Shown here in pieces: positions 12,983 to 17,131 of a DNA stretch of 36,351 bases. Position numbers and translations under genes: made by a program. The DNA comes from an uncultured Verrucomicrobiales bacterium (GTDB lineage Bacteria > Verrucomicrobiota > Verrucomicrobiia > Limisphaerales > UBA1100): contig CAJWKQ010000008.1 of NCBI GenBank assembly GCA_913041895.1, positions 1 through 36,351 on the forward strand. Reading direction: 5' to 3'. Positions within the stretch are counted from its first letter, which is position 1; each line of letters opens with the position of its first letter. Under the pieces are notes generated by a model, which was given only the letters and a program-made list of their open reading frames with translations, did not search any database and was not told where the DNA came from.

Positions 12983-13057
12983 GCGCGCTTAGCTCAGTGG
13001 TAGAGCACATCGTTCACACCGATGGGGTCGTTGGTTCAAATCCAGCAGTGCGCACCA
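12983..13057 (+). tRNA. tRNA-Val, anticodon CAC, CCA encoded
   Basis: A full cloverleaf can be drawn: acceptor GCGCGCT/AGTGCGC (one G-U), D-arm GCTC/GAGC, anticodon stem CATCG/CGATG with loop TTCACAC, T-arm GTTGG/CCAGC with loop TTCAAAT, discriminator A and encoded CCA (13055-13057). Anticodon 13015-13017 is CAC and reads the Val codon GUG. Its 3' end, from the T-loop through the CCA, is duplicated at 13853. Confidence 0.95.
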
Positions 13058-13058
13058 T
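13035..13058 (+). repeat. Putative att site, left copy (3' end of tRNA-Val)
   Basis: The 24 bp from the T-loop through the CCA plus one base (TTCAAATCCAGCAGTGCGCA, then CCAT) recur exactly at 13853-13876. Duplication of a tRNA 3' end is the footprint of tyrosine-recombinase integration, and this copy keeps the tRNA intact. Confidence 0.8.
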
Positions 13059-13140
13059 TATCAATTTCCATTGATAATCAAAGCAAAGCTGGGCTTGCTC
13101 GCTTCAGCACCTTTCCAAAACCAAACAAAACAGGGCGAAA

Positions 13141-13160
13141 TGGTCCCGCTTTGGTCCCGC
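13141..13160. repeat. TTTGGTCCCGC-type direct repeats, left cluster
   Basis: Two copies of TGGTCCCGCT spaced 11 bp apart lie about 83 bp inside the left att copy. Three more lie near the right att copy (13731-13762). Further inward (13180-13240) is a family of GCGACGGTTCTGC-like repeats. The arrangement resembles integrase arm-binding sites. Confidence 0.5.
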
Positions 13161-13322
13161 TTGCAAGGTGTTTGCAAGCTGCGACGGTTCTGCTGGATAC
13201 CGTGACGGTTCTGCTGCGGTTCTGCGGTGACGGTTCGAAGCAAAATGGTCCACAGTGAAAGGGTAGTTATGCCAGGCCAACACCAATGAAGGGTTCTGGC
13301 TTTGTTGATCCTTGGCGCTGAG

Positions 13323-13514
13323 CTACTTAAATCCCCAGTGATATATGTGACGGATAAAAAATAGTGTGCCTAGAAAAAGAGGCAGGTAAACAGCCCAAGA
13401 TTCTAGGATGGTGAGCTTGATGAAGTATATAGCAGCATATCCTAAGATAAAAATCCCGACTATAGCACCCCTCCTCTTCACTTTGACGGGGTCCACTGGT
13501 TCGCCCATAGCCAT
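13323..13514 (-). CDS. Small membrane protein in the tRNA-Val remnant
   Basis: A 63-aa product from the ATG at 13514 (or 13508, MGEPVDPVKVKRRG). A charged N-terminus is followed by two hydrophobic segments (GAIVGIFILGYAAIYFI and WAVYLPLFLGTLFFI). Its first codons overlap the end of the neighbouring 13478-13696 frame. A GAGG lies just upstream. Family unknown; it may be the last gene kept from the integrated element. Confidence 0.45.
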   Translation of the reverse strand: MAMGEPVDPVKVKRRGAIVGIFILGYAAIYFIKLTILESWAVYLPLFLGTLFFIRHIYHWGFK

Positions 13515-13696
13515 ACCTCAAACCTTACTTGCCCCTTTCCTGATGTAAAACCTGAATTTGCCGCCCTCATTCCTCCCCGTGAAAGTCCTTGAGGGCTTAT
13601 CAGTATCTCGTAGGTATCAAGATCCGCCAGTCCAAGCACACGCTCTCGGCCAAGTTTTTTGTACCTGACGACGATGCGTTTTGGATCCGGTTCCAT
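13478..13696 (-). pseudogene. Short ORF, probably truncated
   Basis: A 72-aa frame beginning MEPDPKRIVVRYKKLGRERV, then LGLADLDTYEILISPQGLS. The first 45 residues look protein-like, while the remainder (TSGKGQVRFEVWLWANQWTP) looks like random translation. This suggests a gene truncated or frameshifted at about residue 46. It lies in the remnant between the two att copies. A TAGAAT box lies just upstream on the minus strand. No function can be assigned. Confidence 0.35.
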
Positions 13697-14084
13697 TCAA
13701 CTATTCTAGCACACGAATCGTGGCATGGAATTGGTCCCGTTTTGGTCCCGCTTTGGTCCCGTCGCATATCGTCGCAGACCGTCGCCGATCATAGCAGCTT
13801 GCGTTTTCTTTGGGGAACTGGCTTTTTAAAGGGGTGAAAAGTGCAGAGACGCTTCAAATCCAGCAGTGCGCACCATCTCTTAATAGCACTGATTTTCCGT
13901 AGTGCTTTGAATTTAGATTCAATTTTAAAGGCAAAGTCACAACGAAAGTAACAACAAGTCCGGTGAAGTTTGACTGTGTATAATTCAGATCAGAAGACCC
14001 ACCACGGGATACCCACCACCCCCCCCAACGGACCGCGTATACTATAACACCCCCTCTTTTTTTGCGGGGTGATTTAACAGGGGG
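13697..14084. other. Non-coding stretch: right end of the remnant and its flank
   Basis: No convincing gene is present. It holds three 11-bp-spaced TTTGGTCCCG repeats (13731-13762), a GTCGCAGACCGTCGC segment that is an inverted relative of repeats near 13180, the right att copy (13853-13876), then about 170 bp without recognisable features. CACCCC/GGGGTG at 14048-14071 could fold, but with no following T-run. Confidence 0.5.
13853..13876 (+). repeat. Putative att site, right copy
   Basis: An exact 24-bp duplicate of 13035-13058 (T-loop to CCA of tRNA-Val plus one base) with no tRNA body upstream of it. It marks the right boundary of an integrated segment of about 0.8 kb. The bases on both sides differ from the left copy, so the match is a discrete core. 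Confidence 0.8.
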
Positions 14085-14513
14085 TTATTCGCTTTTGCTC
14101 CAACCAAGTTCCGTAGCCCACCTTTTCCACTTGAGGTAGAAGAGTCCACTCGAAATAGTAAAATAGAGCCACGAACCACCACAAATAACAGGAAGAGTTT
14201 TTATCAAAAATCCAATAGCTTCTTTTTCGGATTCATCGCCGCTCAAATCCGATATGTATAAAAGTAATAAATAGAAACCTATAAAAACAGCAAAACACAT
14301 TATAGTCATATGTAGAAAACCGTCCTTCTTTGCGTAAGGGACATATATTTCTTTGTTGCACTCTACACATTTTCTAATTGTTACAGTATAAGACCCCTCG
14401 CTAGAAGAGCGGGTTCCCTCCTCCTCTGTAAATTCAGTGTGACCCCGACACTTGGAACACCACGGTTTGTTCGGATCTGGATTATTTACACCAGTCTTAT
14501 TAGCTCCGGCCAT
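14085..14513 (-). CDS. Zinc-ribbon plus two-TM small membrane protein (last gene of array)
   Basis: This is 142 aa. The N-terminal part has two CxxC pairs (WCSKCRGHTEF at about residue 18 and KCVECNKEIYV at about 48), a zinc-ribbon pattern. Two membrane segments follow (MTIMCFAVFIGFYLLLLYI and LIKTLPVICGGSWLYFTIS) and a basic C-terminus. Repeat copy A lies directly before the start with GTGGGGG just ahead of the ATG. Function unknown. It is the most downstream gene of the minus-strand array and is followed by non-coding DNA to the tRNA-Val remnant. Confidence 0.65.
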   Translation of the reverse strand: MAGANKTGVNNPDPNKPWCSKCRGHTEFTEEEGTRSSSEGSYTVTIRKCVECNKEIYVPYAKKDGFLHMTIMCFAVFIGFYLLLLYISDLSGDESEKEAIGFLIKTLPVICGGSWLYFTISSGLFYLKWKRWATELGWSKSE

Positions 14514-14522
14514 TCCCCCACG

Positions 14523-14563
14523 TTACCGCCCTGAACCCGAATGGCGAGTCTGAATCTGTTCGG
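14523..14563 (-). repeat. Array leader repeat, copy A
   Basis: Plus-strand core ACCGCCCTGAACCCGAATGG followed by CGAGTCTGAATCTG. On the minus strand it lies directly upstream of the ATG at 14513, with GTGGGGG between. One change from consensus (CCTGAAC for CCCGAAC). Confidence 0.85.
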
Positions 14564-14634
14564 CCTTTTTTAATAACCACGCCTGCACCGCCATAAGAGA
14601 TCCGCATCGGTATCCATACTGCCGCCATTGCACC

Positions 14635-14766
14635 TTACCATCGGCTAATTTCATGCAAGAGCTCTATTAAAGGGACCCATATTGGCAGCGTGATAAGCCA
14701 AAATCCGGAGAGAAACATAAGCACAACCAATAGTTCAATAAGGGTGAACGCTTTTTGAAACTTCAT
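14635..14766 (-). CDS. Miniature prepilin-like peptide (43 aa)
   Basis: The minus strand from the ATG at 14766 encodes MKFQKAFTLIELLVVLMFLS, then 23 more residues to a TAA at 14635. KAFTLIELLVV is the type IV prepilin/type II pseudopilin N-terminus (basic leader, cleavage before Phe, Glu at position 5 of the mature chain), with Ala instead of the usual Gly before the cleavage point. The globular pilin domain is absent; only about 37 residues remain after cleavage. Repeat copy B lies immediately upstream (GTGGGGGT then ATG). It could be a minor pseudopilin-like membrane peptide or a truncated pilin kept as a cassette. Confidence 0.65.
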   Translation of the reverse strand: MKFQKAFTLIELLVVLMFLSGFWLITLPIWVPLIELLHEISRW

Positions 14767-14775
14767 ACCCCCACA

Positions 14776-14808
14776 CTACCGCCCCGAACCCGAATGGCGA
14801 GTCTGAAT
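14776..14808 (-). repeat. Array leader repeat, copy B
   Basis: Plus-strand TACCGCCCCGAACCCGAATG then GCGAGTCTGAAT. It precedes the mini-prepilin ATG at 14766 by a CCCCCA-rich stretch. The conserved match ends earlier than in copies C and D (before CTGCTCGG). Confidence 0.85.
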
Positions 14809-14822
14809 TGGATTTGGAGTTT

Positions 14823-15071
14823 TTATTTGTAATGGTGGCGGTAGAAAACTTTCTTTCCATCATTGCTGACTGCGAATGGTTCCCATCCTTTATTTCCGTG
14901 CTGGGTGGGGAATCCATGAACTGGATCCTTTCCAAAGTCTTCTCTCCACGTCACTGTTACGCCTGTTTCCTCTGTTTTGGCTCCTTTGACGTCTGCAGCA
15001 GCCACGCCGAGGAAAATAGTCGAGGTGAGGAGTGCGCCAATGAGGAGAGATTTAACGTCGATGTTTTTCAT
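14823..15071 (-). CDS. Small exported/anchored protein, MKNIDVKSL family
   Basis: This is 82 aa. The N-terminus MKNIDVKSLLIGALLTSTIF is a hydrophobic signal or anchor ending LGVAAADVKG, followed by a short polar domain ending GWEPFAVSNDGKKVFYRHHY. Two other genes in the array share this start (15863-15967, 17132-17407), and 17132-17407 also shares the GWEPF...(F/Y)xR end, so they are paralogues. Repeat copy C lies directly upstream. A periplasmic or membrane-attached location is likely; the biochemical role is unknown. Confidence 0.7.
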   Translation of the reverse strand: MKNIDVKSLLIGALLTSTIFLGVAAADVKGAKTEETGVTVTWREDFGKDPVHGFPTQHGNKGWEPFAVSNDGKKVFYRHHYK

Positions 15072-15082
15072 GTGCCCCCACG

Positions 15083-15126
15083 CTACCGCCCCGAACCCGA
15101 ATGGCGAGTCTGAATCTGCTCGGGGG
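15083..15126 (-). repeat. Array leader repeat, copy C
   Basis: Full-length copy: CTACCGCCCCGAACCCGAAT, GGCGAGTCTGAATCTG, CTCGGGGG. CCCCGA near one end can pair with TCGGGG at the other, so the unit can fold as a hairpin. It lies directly upstream of the start at 15071. Confidence 0.88.
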
Positions 15127-15128
15127 TT

Positions 15129-15359
15129 TTAGATAAAAACCTTTTCACCTGAAATAATAGAGGCTAGCCCAAGAATAATAAACACCACCGACGCTAACAC
15201 CCATACTATAAGTCTCCACCAAAAACCAAACGGAGATTCGTCGCGAAGATAATATTTCTTACGACTGTACATTCTGCCTGTTTTGTAGGCGTTAAAATTG
15301 ATCAAAAGCCCTACTACGCCTAAAATTATTGCTCCGATTGATACAATACGTTCTTCCAC
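15129..15359 (-). CDS. Small two-TM membrane protein of the array
   Basis: This is 76 aa with a GTG start. Two hydrophobic segments (VSIGAIILGVVGLLINF and LIVWVLASVVFIILGLASII) are separated by a basic, aromatic loop (YKTGRMYSRKKYYLRDESP, then FGFWWR). Repeat copy D lies directly upstream with GTTGGGGGA before the GTG. No family recognised. Array context and size suggest the same kind of small inner-membrane protein as its neighbours. Confidence 0.6.
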   Translation of the reverse strand: MEERIVSIGAIILGVVGLLINFNAYKTGRMYSRKKYYLRDESPFGFWWRLIVWVLASVVFIILGLASIISGEKVFI

Positions 15360-15369
15360 TCCCCCAACG

Positions 15370-15410
15370 CTACCGCCCCGAACCCGAATGGCGAGTCTGA
15401 ATCTGCTCGG
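15370..15410 (-). repeat. Array leader repeat, copy D
   Basis: Full-length copy matching C through TCTGCTCGG, directly upstream of the GTG at 15359. Confidence 0.88.
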
Positions 15411-15443
15411 CCTTTTTCATGATGTTGCTGTTTTCTAATGTGA

Positions 15444-15575
15444 TCAATTATCATCACTATCTAACCACCAAAAAAAGAGGGTTCCAAAAACTTTCCCAAA
15501 AACTTTTGCAGGACCCCAAAGCCACAAACTTCCAACAATGATGACAAGAACTACAACGATAATATAAACTGTCAT
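15444..15575 (-). CDS. 43-aa single-TM peptide of the array
   Basis: The minus strand from the ATG at 15575 gives MTVYIIVVVLVIIVGSLWLW, then GPAKVFGKVFGTLFFWWLDS and DDN, with a TGA at 15444. One membrane segment is followed by an amphipathic aromatic stretch and an acidic tail. GAAAGAAG upstream can serve as a ribosome-binding site. Repeat copy E lies 34 nt upstream, farther than in its neighbours. Function unknown. Confidence 0.5.
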   Translation of the reverse strand: MTVYIIVVVLVIIVGSLWLWGPAKVFGKVFGTLFFWWLDSDDN

Positions 15576-15608
15576 TTGTCTTCTTTCACAAATTTAATAC
15601 CCCTCACC

Positions 15609-15648
15609 TATCGCCCCGAACCCGAATGGCGAGTCTGAAACTGATCGG
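15609..15648 (-). repeat. Array leader repeat, copy E
   Basis: TATCGCCCCGAACCCGAATG, GCGAGTCTGAAACTGATCGG. Two substitutions in the 3' half (AACTGATCGG for ATCTGCTCGG) keep the CCCCGA/TCGGGG pairing possible. Confidence 0.85.
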
Positions 15649-15666
15649 GGGGGTTCATCACGGAAC

Positions 15667-15831
15667 TCAAAGAAAAATCGAGATGACATCACAACCCGTT
15701 AAGTAGCTAAATATGTATAGGGCAACAAGGATAGCGCCACCACAAAACCACATTTTTAGTTGGATATACCAGCTTTCCCAAAAACCGTGCGTGCGGGGTT
15801 CTTCATTTACCGACTTATCCTCTTCCTCCAT
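15667..15831 (-). CDS. 54-aa single-TM peptide of the array, without a full leader repeat
   Basis: The minus strand from the ATG at 15831 gives MEEEDKSVNEEPRTHGFWES, then WYIQLKMWFCGGAILVALYI and FSYLTGCDVISIFL. An acidic cytosolic-looking N-terminus is followed by one membrane segment. A good ribosome-binding site (GAGGAG) lies 5 nt ahead. It is the one gene in this part of the array without the conserved leader; only CTCGGCCTTTA, matching the end of copies A and D, lies upstream. Function unknown. Confidence 0.5.
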   Translation of the reverse strand: MEEEDKSVNEEPRTHGFWESWYIQLKMWFCGGAILVALYIFSYLTGCDVISIFL

Positions 15832-15862
15832 AAATCTCCTCGGCCTTTATTATTTAAGTCCT

Positions 15863-15967
15863 TCATGCGCCAGCTGCCATTACGCGCGAGACGAAAATCA
15901 CCCCTAGGAAGATAGCAGTGGCTAATAATGCGCCAATGATAAGGGATTTAACGTCGATGTTTTTCAT
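15863..15967 (-). CDS. 34-aa peptide, truncated MKNIDVKSL-family paralogue
   Basis: The minus strand from the ATG at 15967 gives MKNIDVKSLIIGALLATAIF, then LGVIFVSRVMAAGA and a TGA at 15863. Its first 22 residues nearly match the protein starting at 15071, and the DNA is also close there, but the polar C-terminal domain is missing. It is either a decayed duplicate or a functional membrane peptide. Repeat copy F lies directly upstream. Confidence 0.55.
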   Translation of the reverse strand: MKNIDVKSLIIGALLATAIFLGVIFVSRVMAAGA

Positions 15968-15979
15968 ATGCCTTCACTC

Positions 15980-16012
15980 TACCGCCCCGAACCCGTATGG
16001 CGAGTCTGAATC
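15980..16012 (-). repeat. Array leader repeat, copy F
   Basis: TACCGCCCCGAACCCGTATG, GCGAGTCTGAATC, with one substitution (CGTATGG for CGAATGG). The stop codon of the upstream gene (TGA at 16011-16013) lies within its far end. Confidence 0.85.
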
Positions 16013-16181
16013 AGCCCTCTAGGACTTCTACTTCCCAATTATCTAAAAGTAGTTTAGCAAGCCAAAGCTGAAATGGTATAGCCGCAAAACCTAAAGTCAG
16101 CACTATGGCCAAGCACCAAAGAACTATTGGCCTCATGTAATCATTAAAATTTATGTTTAATTTGGATTTATATGTTTTCAT
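16011..16181 (-). CDS. 56-aa single-TM peptide of the array
   Basis: The minus strand from the ATG at 16181 gives MKTYKSKLNINFNDYMRPIV, then LWCLAIVLTLGFAAIPFQLW and LAKLLLDNWEVEVLEG. A basic N-terminus, one membrane segment and an acidic C-terminus are visible. GAAGGC lies before the ATG, followed upstream by degenerate repeat copy G. Its stop overlaps copy F. Function unknown. Confidence 0.5.
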   Translation of the reverse strand: MKTYKSKLNINFNDYMRPIVLWCLAIVLTLGFAAIPFQLWLAKLLLDNWEVEVLEG

Positions 16182-16193
16182 ACGCCTTCATGC

Positions 16194-16225
16194 TGCCGCC
16201 CTGAACACAAATTACGAGCACGAAG
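16194..16225 (-). repeat. Array leader repeat, degenerate copy G
   Basis: TGCCGCCCTGAACACAAATT, ACGAGCACGAAG. The GCCGCCC-TGAAC and CGAG parts remain and the rest has diverged. It lies upstream of the ATG at 16181 and just after the ACT-domain gene. Confidence 0.55.
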
Positions 16226-16238
16226 TGGCTTCCGTGTT

Positions 16239-16601
16239 TTAGGGTTGAATTTTCATCAAGCACTGAAGTGCCTTCTCAGCTTTTTCTTTGGGGACAAAAA
16301 TATGATCGTGGTGAGTTCCTGCTATAACATTACAGGCAATGGATTCCCTGGCTAAAGCATGAGAAAATAATGCCGTTAAGCCTTCCGAGTCCAATGCCGT
16401 ATGGACAGTCAAGGTAATCCATCTACAGCGAAAATGAATGTCGAACCCACGTTGCGAGGCTTCTTGTTCAGAAAGCACAAGTGTTAGGCCTTCAGATTCT
16501 CGCACAGATGCCACAACATTTAGTTCACTAATAGGCGTATCCAGCGACACTGAAGTAAACACGTAAGTTCCTTCATGTAGTTGTGGTTTTAAATAACTCA
16601 T
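16239..16601 (-). CDS. ACT-domain protein (ACT_3-like)
   Basis: This is 120 aa, soluble, with no signal peptide. The sequence MSYLKPQLHEGTYVFTSVSL, SVRESEGLTLVLSEQEA, ITLTVHTALDSEGLTALFSH, ALARESIACNVIAGTHHDHI, FVPKEKAEKAL matches a stand-alone two-ACT-fold family found widely in bacteria (DUF2241/ACT_3, from memory). The CNVIAGxxHDHxFVP motif is the clearest sign. It may sense a small ligand such as an amino acid. It is an ordinary-looking gene between array members and may be an insertion point rather than part of the array. Confidence 0.75.
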   Translation of the reverse strand: MSYLKPQLHEGTYVFTSVSLDTPISELNVVASVRESEGLTLVLSEQEASQRGFDIHFRCRWITLTVHTALDSEGLTALFSHALARESIACNVIAGTHHDHIFVPKEKAEKALQCLMKIQP

Positions 16602-16616
16602 GGATTATTTCCGGAT

Positions 16617-17036
16617 CTAGGGCTCTCTATCTGATGTAACAGGTTGTGTGGCGTTTTCTTCTGTGCCCCAACCCATGATTTCAAGTTTTCCATTCAGATC
16701 AATTAGGGTGTCATCGGCCAGTTTCAATTCCATTATTGGTTTAATTTGGTTGCCTTCTGAAATCTCGCCGTAGGTTAAGGTGCCGGAGTTTTTTGTACCT
16801 TGCAGAGACATAATCATAAGTCCTCCATTGGGGGAACGTTTGTCTTGAGCGCTTAAGTCTACATTAACATTCTCAATCATCCCTAGGTGCTCCTGCAGAA
16901 TGGTTTTCTCGTTCAGTAATTCGGCCATGACATCTTCCTCCTGATTTTTCACATAGAAAAAGAGTCCAGTGCAGCTGCCGACCAAAAGCAATGCAGTCAG
17001 TGCCAGTGCGCATAGGATATAAACCACCTTTTTCAT
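16617..17036 (-). CDS. Membrane-anchored hypothetical protein, Coa1-like layout
   Basis: This is 139 aa. The N-terminal anchor is MKKVVYILCALALTALLLVG, followed by SCTGLFFYVKNQEE; the SC after a hydrophobic run could be a weak lipobox. The extracytoplasmic part begins LNEKTILQEHLGMIENVNVD and contains NSGTLTYGEISEGNQIKP, a layout like Coa1-type proteins (anchor, helix ending LG, then a beta domain). That similarity is impression only. It starts 15 bp upstream of the ACT gene and may be cotranscribed with it. Confidence 0.55.
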   Translation of the reverse strand: MKKVVYILCALALTALLLVGSCTGLFFYVKNQEEDVMAELLNEKTILQEHLGMIENVNVDLSAQDKRSPNGGLMIMSLQGTKNSGTLTYGEISEGNQIKPIMELKLADDTLIDLNGKLEIMGWGTEENATQPVTSDREP

Positions 17037-17131
17037 GATCTCAAAGTTGATGTAGCTTGGAAAACTGGTTTACCTGTTTTTAAAGGTGTGCAATTAAAAG
17101 AGGGTTGCTTGGTAGTTCAAAATGGATGGCA

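Follow-up and report, generated by a model that had tools for sequence, protein, structure and literature searches.

The window analysed here, a 36,351-nt stretch of DNA from an uncultured Verrucomicrobiales bacterium, carries an intact tRNA-Val(cac) gene on the plus strand (12983-13057; found by ARAGORN, Rfam score 67.4 bits), the presumed target of an integration event. The 24-bp sequence TTCAAATCCAGCAGTGCGCACCAT, which comprises the final 23 bases of this gene (T-loop to CCA) and one additional T, lies at 13035-13058 and is repeated exactly at 13853-13876, on the same strand, with a start-to-start distance of 818 bp and different flanks. No third copy was present in the window at up to six mismatches, and a genome-wide search returned the two tRNA-Val copies and no others. 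Between these core repeats lie two short minus-strand frames of 63 aa (13323-13514) and 72 aa (13478-13696), and no recombinase was detected there, either among the ORFs or with an integrase profile. The exact copy, its distance and the two frames without a recombinase had all been recorded correctly in the preliminary description. The 63-aa ORF, a possible cargo gene, resembled a small membrane protein by eye. Neither ORF matched a transfer gene or any other family above the cut-off, nor did either match a PHROG.

Just inside both cores we found an 11-bp tandem repeat, TTTGGTCCCGC, present as two units on the left and three on the right, all in one orientation. The left units (TGGTCCCGCTT, 13141-13162, plus strand) lie 83 bp downstream of tRNA-Val, and the right ones (13732-13764, plus strand) begin 121 bp upstream of the right core. 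Specifically, the octamer TGGTCCCG, which had escaped the first reading of the sequence, occurs at 13141, 13152, 13732, 13743 and 13754, always on the plus strand and with a spacing of exactly 11 bp, one helical turn, inside each cluster. These five matches, all of the 36-kb window, fall within the 0.8-kb element; 0.74 were expected for the whole window and 100 shuffles yielded at most three. Tandem TTTGGTCCCGC repeats were found nowhere else in the window's genome, and the TGGTCCCG pair was absent from about 98 related genomes, bar one site with a single mismatch in G053. Integrases of the lambda type use arm-type binding sites located just inside both ends of tyrosine-recombinase elements. 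By analogy, we infer that the TTTGGTCCCGC repeats would bind an integrase as arm-type sites. Three imperfect GACGGTTCTGC repeats (13179-13225, plus strand; repeat family D9) may represent a second set of protein-binding sites.

The preliminary description had proposed to look for empty sites in close relatives and had counted the presence of the same 0.8 kb in all of them as evidence against integration. The latter outcome is excluded, because six relatives (G001, G003, G007, G008, G012 and G019) presented one tail copy and no 0.8-kb insert at the nadB-tRNA-Val locus, which is conserved among relatives. G019 constituted a true empty-site equivalent, since the sequence following its tRNA is homologous to the right flank of the window (70% identity over 132 columns beyond the second core). 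G007 has a different set of small genes arrayed after its single tRNA, and the sequence beyond them is orthologous to window 16009-17038. As for the larger, integrase-bearing version that had also been anticipated, this tRNA yielded none within the genus, and one appeared only at the homologous tRNA-Val(cac) of the more distant G030.

The sequence to the right of the second core opens with a different tandem repeat, AAAGTCACAAC, which is unlike TTTGGTCCCGC and common to two relatives. Its 12-bp units, AAAGTCACAACG and AAAGTAACAACA (13933-13956, plus strand), are putative left arm-type sites of a second element; a scan of 58 genomes located them at just two other places, immediately downstream of tRNA-Val in G019 and on G004:C5, where the 195 bp starting 8 bp past the core are 90% identical to the window. 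They are followed by a conserved end module, CCACC...CACCCCCTCTTTTTTTGCGGGGTG (13999-14077, plus strand), also present at tRNA-Arg and tRNA-Leu of G002, where it adjoins other tandem arm repeats. This module is terminator-like and is common to element ends at different tRNAs of the genus. Next comes an array of small genes with the dispersed motif A (14085-16181, minus strand), whose right edge has orthologues in G004 and G007. Because the distinct AAAGTCACAAC repeat recurs in two relatives, the array probably belongs to another, older element inserted at this tRNA. The small genes are probably the cargo of that older element and the 0.8 kb was inserted between it and the tRNA. The different tandem repeat and the adjacent end module support the earlier proposal that this tRNA was the source of the array as well. 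The 0.8 kb and the array could instead form one composite island that moved together, with the inner copy as a former end, and accretion of adjacent elements with a common core is indeed known (PMC5704250). However, different arm sequences flank the inner copy (TTTGGTCCCGC versus AAAGTCACAAC), the second end occurs separately in G019 and G004, and no core copy was found in the window at the right end of the array, which make a composite island improbable.

We then extended the analysis to the neighbourhoods of 95 tRNAs, from the window's genome (G000), G002 and G004 together with a few from other relatives. Downstream of 11 of the 95 tRNAs, at a distance of 20-260 bp, we found tandem repeats with units of 11 or 12 bp; among upstream flanks the count was 1 of 91, and among background windows 40 of 2006 (Fisher test for the latter, P about 1e-5). 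One of the 11 matches, at tRNA-Leu(cag) (L133), resembles a repeat of a coding sequence and is probably due to chance. Most repeat-flanked tRNAs had no integrase in the downstream DNA examined, where some contigs end early, and tRNA-Lys of G000 showed a one-sided, degraded end. Tail copies were present downstream of four surveyed tRNAs: the tRNA-Val of the window (at +797), tRNA-Lys of G002 (+1526, core of 47 bp), tRNA-Met of G004 (+1058 and +3673, cores of 50 and 25 bp, forming two tandem elements) and tRNA-Leu of G002 (+2037, a copy of nearly the whole tRNA). None of the elements at these four tRNAs contained a full integrase; that at tRNA-Leu of G002 contained an 86-aa N-terminal integrase fragment.

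The outer tRNA-Met element of G004 (on G004:C10) was a sister of the window element. It carries three right units (TTTGCACCCGC), two left units and the same small ORF together with other cargo; its right arm lies at -124, matching the geometry of the window's right end, and the small ORF lies beside the right arms. In the window this is the 72-aa ORF, whose 33 N-terminal codons are conserved with the sister. The frames between the cores had been called partly decayed, which does not apply to this N-terminus, conserved at the protein level; the C-terminus of the same ORF is shifted to another frame after a deletion. Over the 33 codons, 40 of 99 nucleotides differ between both ORFs, 26 of these 40 at third positions, and synonymous change is saturated. 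Since the nadB-tRNA regions of the two hosts are 93% identical, such a divergence indicates that the window and G004 elements are separate lineages with a common backbone. Similarly, the inner tRNA-Met element of G004 and the tRNA-Lys element of G002 form a second integrase-less pair, with ends 83-85% identical and different arm units (TTGTGCCAATT and TTGGACAAATT). A right end of this second type recurs on G007:C19, next to a sequence that resembles, by eye, the 3′ end of a tRNA-Ser. A second copy of the window's own element was not found. No match to the small ORF was obtained in viral contigs, phage records or plasmid records, nor to the core sequence in viral contigs. We considered the small ORF as a candidate excisionase; it matched no family and this role remains a guess.

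These data bear on two further explanations of the duplicated tRNA end. It might have arisen without a recombinase, through tandem duplication or rearrangement by replication slippage or as an artefact of metagenome assembly. The genome is a draft of 278 contigs, and a broken tRNA-Val of G004 joined to a 20-bp match with the sister ORF could be an assembly chimera. Against this, the copy ends at the T-loop, a usual crossover point of integrases, arm repeats are present at both ends and three other tRNAs of the genus show the same arrangement. Such an origin is very improbable. The G004 junction itself (L026 6252-6325, on G004:C16) consists of a tRNA-Val that breaks off after base 44 and is fused to a sulfatase gene, the 20 bp at the junction matching the small ORF on G004:C10, and may be either a chimera or a rearrangement.

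The second explanation is a dead remnant, in which a once complete, integrase-bearing island at tRNA-Val was reduced in place to its ends, losing the integrase and most other content. Decay does occur in the genus, as illustrated by the integrase fragment at tRNA-Leu of G002 and the degraded end at tRNA-Lys of G000, and the shifted C-terminus of the 72-aa ORF would also fit. In contrast, both cores and all five arm units of the window element are intact; a sister with the same ends and ORF and with other cargo resides at another tRNA, likewise without an integrase; and the divergence of the ORF relative to that of the hosts argues against one vertically inherited remnant. We consider in-place decay, the chief alternative, rather unlikely. 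Because all end sites are intact, the element is better described as non-autonomous or cis-mobilisable than as a remnant.

We used the N-terminal integrase fragment of G002 as a query against genomes of the same family and order. Nearly all matches were located directly downstream of a tRNA or tmRNA, with a layout in which the tRNA is followed after 33 to 84 bp by a tandem 11-bp repeat and then at once by an integrase of 420-480 aa. Examples were found at tRNA-Lys (G016, repeats TTACACAGTTT/TAACACAGATT), tRNA-Arg (G019), tRNA-Asn (G028), tRNA-Gln (G034, where the tail is repeated at a distance of about 6.2 kb) and the tRNA-Val(cac) homologous to that of the window (G030, repeats GGACACAAGTT/GGACACAGATA). 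The G016 protein scored above the Pfam phage-integrase cut-off and the G030 protein was weaker, below it; no relative of the G016-type integrase was detected in viral contigs. The window element and the integrase elements of the order (G016, G019, G034 and G030) are alike in the tRNA, the short gap and the two 11-bp repeats inside the end. They differ in that the latter carry other repeats (TTACACAGTTT, GGACACA and similar ones) followed by a tyrosine integrase of 420-480 aa, which the window element lacks.

The PF00589 matches of the window's genome were all on other contigs. Integrases with tandem repeats between the gene and a tRNA end were present on C231 (TTTGTACCACCT) and C193 (AAAGTTAATAC), and none of the integrase loci of this genome carried TTTGGTCCCGC. 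The C231 integrase is P4-like and lies beside a tRNA-Ser-like end, while C193 and tRNA-Ser(cga) on C26 probably represent the right and left ends, respectively, of a single element, with the same core and similar AAAGTTAA repeats (L070, L072 and L134 for C231, C193 and C26, respectively). Searches by arm sequence revealed no cognate integrase in 98 relatives or in viral contigs. Neither the genus nor 320 genomes of the order, the latter searched with a degenerate pattern, yielded an integrase associated with TTTGGTCCCGC, and the arm repeat led to no parent element in those 320 genomes. Across a genome collection the arm pair matched 28 loci, most of them without an adjacent integrase by profile. 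Two Leucobacter genomes have the exact TGGTCCCG pair with tRNA-Pro on one side and an integrase on the other; since tRNA, repeat and integrase came together at just 2 of the 28 loci, we take these as support by analogy only.

Altogether, we consider it likely that 13059-13876 is an integrated, integrase-less, CIME-like non-autonomous element of a tRNA site, whose integrase came from elsewhere. A tyrosine recombinase would join the T-loop core of tRNA-Val(cac) to a matching core on a circular or donor form, thereby restoring the tRNA on the left and leaving the 24-bp copy on the right. The binding sites of the enzyme would be the core together with the 11-bp TTTGGTCCCGC tandem units inside both ends, and the insertion point would lie between the tRNA and the older element with its AAAGTCACAAC repeats, conserved module and array. 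Because no such enzyme is encoded in the 0.8 kb, it would be supplied by another element, making the 0.8 kb cis- or trans-mobilisable; a trans-acting integrase presumably moved it, and the element may still be able to excise. The helper integrase could be missing from the data, as the genome is an 81.5%-complete draft. The view that this is a tRNA-targeting element without its integrase, or a mobilisable minimal element, had been put forward in the preliminary description and is supported by the arm repeats at both ends and by the sister at another tRNA. These observations suggest that the window element and its sisters form a small family of hitch-hikers that borrow the enzyme of another element, and the window element is most simply seen as part of a genus-wide population of such elements.

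Cis-mobilisable elements (CIMEs) were defined for relatives of streptococcal ICEs and IMEs (PMC5704250). Like them, the window element retains attL and attR of one target (the 24-bp cores with arm repeats at both ends), has no recombinase gene between the copies and no conjugation or transfer genes, just two small ORFs, and shares its tRNA end with another element in tandem (PMC5704250). Unlike a typical CIME, it is just 0.8 kb long with both arm clusters intact, and the presence of a sister at another tRNA suggests dispersal in integrase-less form rather than in-place decay. The ssrA islands of Dehalococcoides are also arranged in tandem and bounded by copies of the end of a tRNA-like gene, 15 without and 16 with an integrase; however, they rely on serine recombinases and one target, while the elements described here have tyrosine-recombinase anatomy and occupy many tRNAs (PMC3146451). 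The account of fGI-2 in Ca. Methylopumilus describes repetition of the last 20 nt of tRNA-Lys and cassettes from 330 bp to 42 kb (PMC10872708). In fGI-2 and in Alteromonas fGI1, as far as the available text of both accounts extends, variable cassettes of mostly unknown genes lie between tRNA-end copies, without mention of paired arm-type repeats or of ends common to elements in different tRNAs (PMC10872708, PMC4119200). The window element resembles a cassette of such additive flexible genomic islands in that a tRNA-end repeat bounds an insert missing in some relatives. Two other classes were discarded: tycheposons, described as 4-200 kb tRNA elements with a tyrosine recombinase (PMC10872708), in view of the 0.8 kb and the lack of a recombinase, and phage satellites (PICI/PICMI), as the ORFs had no PHROG match and there was no integrase. 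CIMEs, tandem accretion and tRNA-end cassettes are thus already described (PMC5704250, PMC3146451, PMC10872708 and PMC4119200).

A limited literature search found no description of integrase-less families below 3 kb with common ends and differing arms at several tRNAs of one bacterial genus. Integrase-less islands at tRNA genes are usually dismissed as debris. The present elements comprise two pairs with common ends at different tRNAs and in different species, without an integrase and with arm-type sites legible from the sequence. They allow a direct test of whether a resident integrase moves them in trans and whether the arm repeats choose the helper. In addition, a tail copy combined with an 11-bp tandem repeat provides a simple way to find small elements missed by integrase-based searches. 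As a tentative possibility, the genus may harbour long-lived lineages of tRNA elements that propagate in integrase-less form and switch tRNAs, their arms fitted to the available integrase. If so, only the core, the two plus three arm repeats and one small conserved ORF would be kept, with changeable cargo, and the common ORF would belong to the machinery, perhaps as a directionality factor.

Two dispersed sequences were also observed at the locus. A 38-bp motif with a GCCCTC...GAGGGC hairpin (13561-13598), folding with a z of -2.3, lies between small genes at many loci of the genus and recurs genus-wide where small genes, among them leucine-rich-repeat genes, end (e.g., L014 3919-3954 and L018 3711-3748, part of it being in frame as the end of the small ORF in L018). 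Its presence at gene ends in many loci ruled it out as an element-specific feature. In the array, seven copies of the dispersed motif ACCGCCCCGAACCCGAATGGCGAGTCTGAAT lie between same-strand small genes (window 14515-16218). An integron, with an intI-type integrase and attC sites, was considered for the array, whose repeat folds no better than shuffled DNA (z -0.32). Two cassettes of the window (15075-15420 and 15601-15786) have counterparts of 92% identity that adjoin each other on G002:C247 (L016 931-1403). Because G002:C247 lacks the intervening cassette 15362-15600, single cassettes have seemingly been gained or lost at the ACCGCCCCGAACCCGAATGGCGAGTCTGAAT motif.
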